In this document: positions 12,565 to 13,359 of the stretch, one piece after another | Position numbering within the stretch: the first letter of the stretch is position 1 | Layout: each line of letters opens with the position of its first letter | Origin: Arthrobacter sp. B3I4 | GTDB lineage: Bacteria; Actinomycetota; Actinomycetes; Actinomycetales; Micrococcaceae | Length of the DNA stretch: 64,000 nucleotides | Assembly (NCBI RefSeq): GCF_030816855.1 | Contig: NZ_JAUSYK010000001.1 | Location: 2,294,001 to 2,358,000 of the forward strand | Direction: 5' to 3' | Position numbers and translations under genes: made by a program | The notes under the pieces: generated by a model | The model's input: the letters and a program-made list of their open reading frames with translations, nothing else | What the model was told of the DNA's origin: nothing | Database searches by the model: none

Positions 12565-13359
12565 ATGATGGAGACGACGACGGCGACGGGCGGTTTGGTC
12601 TACGGCATCCGGCTTCGGCGGGAGGTTGAGTACCGCTACGTTGGTATCACGACCAAGACGGCCAGTCGTCGTTTCCGTCAGCACCTCCGCGTTGCTGCAG
12701 AGGGGCGCAAGACGCCGTTCTACGACTGGGTCCGGAAACAGAATCCCTCGGATCTCATCGCGGACGAGCTGGACTGGGTTGAGGGGTTGCAGGAGCTGGG
12801 CCAGGCCGAGATGGATTGGATCAGCTATCTGCGTCGCGAGGGGGATCGGCTACTGAACCTGTCGGAAGGTGGCATGGGACCGACCGGGGTGGTGTGGACC
12901 GAGGAGATGCGGGAGGCCGCGCGAATCCGGAACACCGGGCGGAAGGGGTTGAGCCGACCCGGCGCTGCAAATCCTTTCTACGGTGGAAAGCACAGTGACG
13001 AGCAGCGCAAGAAGTGGGAAGTTACTCGCAAGGGAACGAACTCCGGCGCTCACAATCCGAACTTCGGCAAGTTCGGGGCGGACCACCCGAGCTTTGGCCA
13101 CAAAATGAGCGAGGAATCCCGGAAGGCTCTTTCGGAAGCCAGGAAGGGCACGGGGAATCCCAACTTCGGTAAGAAGCTAAGCGCTGAGACCCGTGCGAAA
13201 ATATCCGCGGCTCAGAAGGGCAAGCCGAAGCCCATCAGCCAGCGCAGTGCACACACCAGGCACCATACAAATAAAGGCATCGAGAAAGCCGACTGCAACT
13301 ATTGCGTCGAGGACTCGGCCAAACCAAGTCTCTCTTCAGAAAGCGAGTCGGAGTCATGA
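12565..13359 (+). CDS. Free-standing GIY-YIG homing endonuclease with NUMOD3 repeats, inserted between nrdE and nrdF
   Basis: A 264-aa protein. The N-terminal GIY-YIG nuclease (residues about 10-105) shows [15 protein letters not shown], an Arg-rich RRFRQHL helix, the likely catalytic Glu in [11 protein letters not shown], and the typical close LLNLSEGG. The C-terminal half carries three NUMOD3-type DNA-binding repeats: [21 protein letters not shown]...[10 protein letters not shown] and [22 protein letters not shown]. The tail is Ser/Glu-rich and overlaps the nrdF start (ATGA). By eye it is less GC-rich than nrdE and nrdF, suggesting acquisition. Because nrdE and nrdF are each complete, it is intergenic and not inside an intron or intein. 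Confidence 0.9.

Follow-up and report, generated by a model that had tools for sequence, protein, structure and literature searches.

Why a complete nuclease gene should stand between the two subunit genes of ribonucleotide reductase in a bacterial chromosome is the question raised by the window, a stretch of 64,000 nucleotides from Arthrobacter sp. B3I4. Most work on free-standing homing endonucleases has been done in phages. From comparisons of sequences we consider it very probable that the gene is a chromosomal, free-standing homing endonuclease gene (HEG) of the GIY-YIG/NUMOD3 type, which homes at the end of nrdE and replaces the spacer together with the adjoining gene ends, the nrdE tails of HEG-carrying alleles probably being left uncut.

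The HEG (12565..13359, 264 aa) belongs to an nrdHIEF operon lying on the forward strand. It is preceded by the glutaredoxin-like nrdH (9593..9838; TIGR02194, E 1.8e-32), the flavodoxin gene nrdI (9872..10369; TIGR00333, E 1.6e-45) and nrdE, encoding the large subunit of a class Ib ribonucleotide reductase (10339..12528; TIGR04170, 1251 bits; the start codon is uncertain, 10339 being that of the longest open reading frame), and it is followed by nrdF, encoding the class Ib small subunit (13356..14330). A leader of 36 nt (12529..12564), which does not contain the hairpin found in alleles without the HEG, separates it from nrdE, and its TGA stop codon overlaps the ATG of nrdF (ATGA). Within the 3' end of the HEG, the motif AGAAAG (13338..13343), which we take to be a match to the anti-Shine–Dalgarno (anti-SD) sequence, is the probable ribosome-binding site of nrdF; every one of the 35 family HEG alleles has it no more than 40 nt from nrdF, vs none of the 93 empty alleles of the genus. 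The gene arrangement suggests that the HEG would be co-transcribed within nrdHIEF. The GC content at third codon positions is 0.74 in the HEG, 0.94 in nrdE and 0.92 in nrdF. Profile matches and the reading frame agree with the sequence-only reading, which had seen an intact GIY-YIG/NUMOD3 frame of 264 aa between complete nrdE and nrdF genes, and its description of the HEG as intronless and intergenic also holds: an intron around the HEG was rejected, since no Rfam match was found in 9300-14600 and both nrd genes are intact and uninterrupted.

The encoded protein consists of an I-TevI-like GIY-YIG nuclease domain (residues 10–91; 12592..12837) and NUMOD3 repeats, the best of which, a DNA-binding element, covers residues 178–214 (13096..13206). 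These two domains account for all its Pfam matches, the HNH nuclease motif of the mobE type being absent from them. In an alignment of 121 sequences, i.e. the window protein and the best 120 of its 626 protein relatives, the residues Y13, Y25, G27, R36, H40, E82 and N98 are conserved at 0.98–1.00, and presumably correspond to the catalytic residues of I-TevI. As judged from the pN/pS ratio (0.22 for the HEG and 0.15 for residues 1–100), the HEG is under purifying selection, with the strongest constraint on the nuclease domain.

The nrdE–nrdF spacer was compared in the genus of the window (121 genomes searched, 118 matched), as the sequence-only reading had proposed in order to find empty alleles, and these turned out to be the majority: 93 of the 118 spacers are empty, 17 contain the HEG and 8 contain another insert. 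The empty spacers are 88–128 bp long, counting the nrdE stop codon, and carry a strong hairpin (z about -5.0 for the one spacer folded). Both hairpin arms, at most 45 nt apart, are present in 90 of the 93 empty alleles vs none of the 35 HEG alleles, which argues that the HEG takes the place of the spacer instead of interrupting it. A string search matched a single arm in three HEG alleles, where the matches, as judged by eye, fall inside the start region of the HEG itself. The hairpin of the empty spacers is stable and conserved in the genus (for example in L037 and L042, with the arms GTACGACGGCGGG), and could set the ratio of nrdE to nrdF expression. The HEG alleles themselves are in various states of preservation. 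In L015 the HEG is broken by a stop codon at the GIY tyrosine, and further broken copies are found in L027 and L334 and, in a second genus from another order, in G669 and G960; L012 was counted as intact despite an early stop near the end of the HEG. Three alleles of another genus of the family (L028–L030) are remnants in which ~35 codons from the 3' end of the HEG survive together with an nrdF start of the HEG type; their nrdE ends in the common tail described below, and their hairpin differs from that of the empty alleles. Vertical inheritance with losses alone was judged unlikely, because one hairpin unites the empty alleles (90/93 vs 0/35 with both arms) and the known losses in L028–L030 leave a footprint.

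The HEG is patchily distributed, with carriers making up 24 of 206 genomes in the genus of the window. The HEG has matches in 31 of the 395 genomes sampled from the family; 26 of these matches are near-complete HEGs, including the frameshifted copy of L027, and all 26 lie between nrdE and nrdF, the others being the three remnants of 146 bp and two weak, unrelated matches. A search of genome contigs returned 14 loci, 13 of which are true relatives of the HEG, from Gordonia, Nocardia and Isoptericola among others, and all 13 follow nrdE; the remaining locus matches at 23% and has no nrd genes, and several of the relatives come from genomes that are also in the family sample. At class level the HEG is matched in 6 of 393 genomes, one copy being broken, and in the second genus in 9 of 148, two being broken. 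The HEG of the second genus follows nrdE as well, and nrdF was not found within the fetched flank of ~1.5 kb, so that the partner shared by all these HEGs is the 3' end of nrdE. In three genomes of the window's genus a second nrdE-like stretch was noticed (L162, G445:C1; L165, G447:C2; L169, G424:C1), and no adjoining nrdF was found. Carriage of the HEG by plasmids was rejected, the only matches being seven partial ones from Bacillus.

The history of the HEG was followed on a tree of the nrdE and nrdF bodies, built for 122 genus loci including four HEG-carrying genomes added from the family sample (L007, L011, L013 and L016); the codon counts given below refer to the same loci. On this tree, at least 20 changes of state are needed for the 21 HEG-carrying rows of the genus, similar to what is obtained with shuffled labels (mean 19.7, range 15–21, 200 shuffles). 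When all 139 rows are placed on the tree, HEG rows cluster more strongly than shuffled labels do, with 23 changes vs a mean of 31.3, in part because carriage of the HEG was the reason for fetching the rows from other genera. A clade of 17 HEG-carrying genomes that is well supported by nrd DNA (100/99) is rejected by HEG DNA (p-AU 0.0135), and the sister genomes L006 and L027 differ far more in the HEG (25%, the copy of L027 being the frameshifted one) than in nrd (4.2%). The scatter over the genus nrd tree and this disagreement with the flanks support the earlier interpretation of the gene as a homing endonuclease, under which inheritance would be other than vertical. On the other hand, HEG and nrd distances are correlated (Mantel r 0.86; 0.82 for nrdE vs nrdF), which speaks against widely promiscuous transfer and suggests that exchange occurs mostly among relatives, as recombination requiring homology would give; plain recombination among relatives could also contribute to the movement of the HEG.

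Differentiation between HEG-carrying and empty alleles of the genus is confined to the ends of the two flanking genes. Fst reaches 0.20 in the terminal 30 nt of nrdE and 0.35 in the initial 30 nt of nrdF, and stays at 0.01–0.04 in every other 30-nt bin of the 990 nt (nrdE) and 660 nt (nrdF) compared. On the nrdF side, the first codons are recoded to AAA GTR in HEG-carrying alleles of the genus: codon 4 is AAA in 21 of 21 such alleles vs AAG in 93 of 93 empty ones, with independent pairs on supported branches at 13:0, and codon 5 is GTA or GTG vs GTC without exception, while four nearby control codons have no association with the HEG. As a family-wide rule, AAA at codon 4 was dropped, being present in 7 of the 14 HEG-carrying rows from other genera and replaced by AGA in L330, a genus row added later. 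The mean minimum free energy of mRNA folding at the nrdF start is -11.5 with the HEG-type vs -16.8 with the empty-type codons; owing to this weaker structure, selection on translation is an alternative explanation for the nrdF side. Linked blocks of ~30 nt per side, together with the one-sided break in a phage genome described below, would fit co-conversion, although the nrdF side could also result from selection.

On the nrdE side the linked change affects the protein. In its common form, EGCVSCML, the NrdE tail carries a Gly at -7 and a Met at -2. This combination is found in 78 of the 93 empty alleles of the genus vs 1 of the 21 HEG-carrying ones (Fisher 6e-12; independent pairs 9.9:0, median p 0.002), and the sole exception is L015, the allele whose HEG is stopped at the GIY tyrosine. 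It is likewise found in none of 14 HEG-carrying alleles from other genera of the family, in none beside the 13 intact HEGs of other families, and in one beside the five intact HEGs of phages and viral contigs (L229). Among the intact HEG alleles taken together, 52 of 53 have an altered tail at the proposed target and one has the Gly-7/Met-2 tail, vs three of six broken ones (Fisher 0.0024, post hoc; L015, L173 and L230 with the common tail, L027, L183 and L334 with altered ones), in a count of few broken copies and related rows that include the near-identical pairs L070/L071 and L170/L176. In the smaller set available before fresh genomes were added, the proportions were 3/5 and 1/51 (Fisher 0.0014). 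The rule was defined after the data had been seen, and its fresh tests are three genomes: L330 and L331, intact with an altered tail (2/2), and L334, broken with an altered tail; L069, apparently the same genome as L330, was not counted, and L062, a copy of L040, was excluded.

In the second genus, Asn occupies position -7 in 8 of 9 HEG-carrying vs 2 of 27 HEG-free genomes (p 1.3e-5), the latter drawn from the best 30 of 142 genomes matching a query without the last 45 nt of nrdE, and the single HEG-carrying genome without this Asn has a broken copy. An association spread over the whole of nrdE was rejected, since among the 71 positions that vary within the C-terminal 330 residues -7 was the strongest by far, and recoding of Ser-4 to TCN was dropped as a general signature because it runs in the opposite direction in the second genus. 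The Fst step and the tail counts suggest that the nrdE end is the target of the HEG, with the last 10 codons of nrdE in the window (12496..12525) as the putative homing or recognition site in its altered, possibly immune, form. The simplest reading of the tail counts would be that the nuclease targets the tail codons and lasts in intact form only beside an altered site; hitchhiking of the flanks with the HEG also explains the linkage, but accounts less readily for common tails beside dead copies.

Relatives of the HEG were also sought in actinophages with nrd genes, following a suggestion of the sequence-only reading, and the same gene order was found in the Arthrobacter phage Talia1610 (PQ559666), i.e. 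nrdH-nrdI-nrdE-GIY-YIG-nrdF. The product of its gene, gp111, is annotated as a G-I-Y Y-I-G endonuclease, contains NUMOD3 and is 34% identical to the window HEG; in the related phages Atuin, Racecar and Mimi the nrdE–nrdF spacer is short and empty. Talia1610 and Racecar are >99% identical over ~11 kb until 110–170 nt before the nrdE stop codon, and beyond this break diverge by 8–23% per 60-nt bin up to the HEG. A sharp break is seen on the nrdE side alone, the downstream DNA being mosaic, and it fits the account of nuclease genes at boundaries of phage–phage exchange given in excerpts of PMC10448857. Among viral contigs, 80 of the 104 relatives found were kept. Five of them, with 47–70% identity, have the order nrdE-HEG-nrdF, one with a broken HEG. 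The other 75 (L234–L308) are weaker GIY-YIG/NUMOD3 relatives, of which 28 are flanked by distant genes for the large and the small subunit, presumably nrdA and nrdB, which share about 25% identity with nrdE and nrdF; a further nine have only the large subunit upstream, eight only the small subunit downstream, and 30 neither within the fetched stretch. The tail rule is weak in phages: among six HEG-free phage records, the tail is altered in four (Racecar, Mimi, Atuin and A3Wally) and of the common type in the two unverified contigs L194 and L195. Related GIY-YIG genes were also observed in the Gordonia phages GodonK (L187) and Sixama (L189), flanked by DNA polymerase I and a ribonucleotide reductase gene, and adjoining thymidylate kinase and synthase.

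The other insert that occupies the nrdE–nrdF spacer is unrelated to the HEG. It is found in eight spacers of the genus, 578–666 bp long (L033, L038, L047, L059, L086, L104, L131 and L167), and in a spacer of ~536 bp in another genus (L321). Its conserved stems comprise 36 predicted pairs, 12 of which are changed on both sides among the eight sequences, and it holds mini-ORFs such as MAKGSYRSAKTGRYVTPKYGKSHPSTTVKESK. A group I intron or another known RNA was rejected, four loci giving no Rfam match, and neither Pfam matches nor matches to phage or plasmid DNA were found; one pattern searched against viral contigs also gave no match. Five of the eight carriers have an altered NrdE tail (Fisher 0.007; independent pairs not significant).

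In the mechanism that we propose, the nuclease would recognise and cut the 3' end of nrdE, near the codons of the C-terminal cysteine pair, in alleles that are without the HEG. Repair by recombination from a HEG-carrying allele would then exchange the empty spacer of 88–128 bp for the HEG, and the adjoining ends of nrdE and nrdF would be copied along with it. The altered nrdE tails of HEG-carrying alleles would probably escape cutting, and expression of nrdF would be preserved by the stop–start overlap and the SD-like motif in the 3' end of the HEG. The sequences themselves show the anatomy of the locus, the conserved catalytic residues, the empty, occupied, broken and remnant states, the conflicting HEG phylogeny, the flanks linked to the allele and the counterpart in a phage; cutting, its exact site, immunity and drive are what we infer. 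A wider proposal is plausible, although we lean slightly against it, namely that a selfish nuclease drives the evolution of NrdE at the protein level: the tail codons would be its target, and the altered tails, with Asn at -7, Ala at -2 or yet other residues, would be immunity alleles that travel with the HEG across actinobacterial orders and may revert after the death of the nuclease, while the insert with structured RNA and mini-ORFs would use the same cut site.

Other explanations of the locus have to be weighed against homing. The HEG might be an inactive or neutral passenger whose spread owes nothing to a nuclease: spacers with the HEG and those with the hairpin would be a pair of old alleles reshuffled by ordinary homologous recombination among related strains, the flanks differing by simple linkage. 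The correlation of HEG with nrd distances (r 0.86), the status of the HEG as a minority allele (24/206) and its decayed copies (L015, L027, L334, G669 and G960) and remnants (L028–L030) are in line with such a passenger, but it is at variance with the conservation of the catalytic residues and the low pN/pS of residues 1–100, with the common tail beside three of six broken vs 1 of 53 intact copies (post hoc), and with one target gene end common to several orders and a phage; we therefore regard it as unlikely.

It is very improbable that the protein is a domesticated regulator of the nrd operon that benefits the host through DNA binding by NUMOD3 and translational coupling, as the gene is patchily present, most strongly constrained in its nuclease domain, lost with remnants left behind and present in a phage, even though its position inside the operon, the ATGA overlap and the SD-like motif would suit a regulator, and many members of the family are named "NUMOD3 domain-containing DNA-binding protein" in the source databases. 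Equally improbable is a host weapon or factor of phage competition that cuts the nrd genes of incoming phages and does not home into bacterial alleles. Homing-endonuclease models of PADLOC match the HEG weakly (E 4.6e-7), and related nucleases lie beside nrd subunit genes in phages and viral contigs; however, the allele-linked change of the NrdE tail sits in the bacterial gene, and four of the six HEG-free phage records already have altered tails.

Homing at the end of nrdE, as preferred here, has counterparts in known systems. Excerpts of PMC2988022 cover T4 mobE, an HNH gene at nrdA/nrdB, the seg genes and co-conversion; those of PMC3653736 cover mobE and introns in phage ribonucleotide reductase genes, and those of PMC3984707 intronless homing and the nrd introns of Bacillus and cyanobacteria. 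The window HEG resembles mobE and the seg genes, as they appear in the excerpts of PMC2988022, in being free-standing, in lying beside nrd (mobE), in the start/stop overlap with a neighbour and possibly in co-conversion of its flanks, and the seg genes are themselves free-standing GIY-YIG genes. In contrast, mobE is an HNH gene of phages, and the window HEG is a GIY-YIG gene in a bacterial chromosome, at class Ib nrdE/nrdF; unlike mobE, alleles with HEGs of the window type carry an altered protein tail. Talia1610 gp111 likewise combines GIY-YIG and NUMOD3 between nrdE and nrdF, but in a phage genome and with a distant sequence, and I-TevI differs in being encoded by an intron, none having been found around the window HEG. 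Group I introns in bacterial nrdE/nrdF (Bacillus and cyanobacteria) and in phages are also mobile elements that use nrd (PMC3984707 and PMC3653736, excerpts); however, they interrupt the coding sequence and splice, whereas the window HEG is intergenic and leaves both genes whole. Searches of an open-access library brought up no title or abstract opening that names the nrdE-HEG-nrdF arrangement. Intronless homing at nrd is known from phages; what sets the present case apart is its setting in bacterial chromosomes and the allele-linked change of a protein.

The proteins at the nrdE–nrdF site that bear the NUMOD3 database name given above are suggested by these comparisons to be nucleases. Free-living bacteria repeatedly carry the HEG within an essential operon of their chromosomes, where empty, occupied, decayed and remnant alleles coexist, and this coexistence makes the locus a natural system for the spread of a HEG between bacterial species, and also for asking whether a HEG forces amino-acid change in an essential enzyme.
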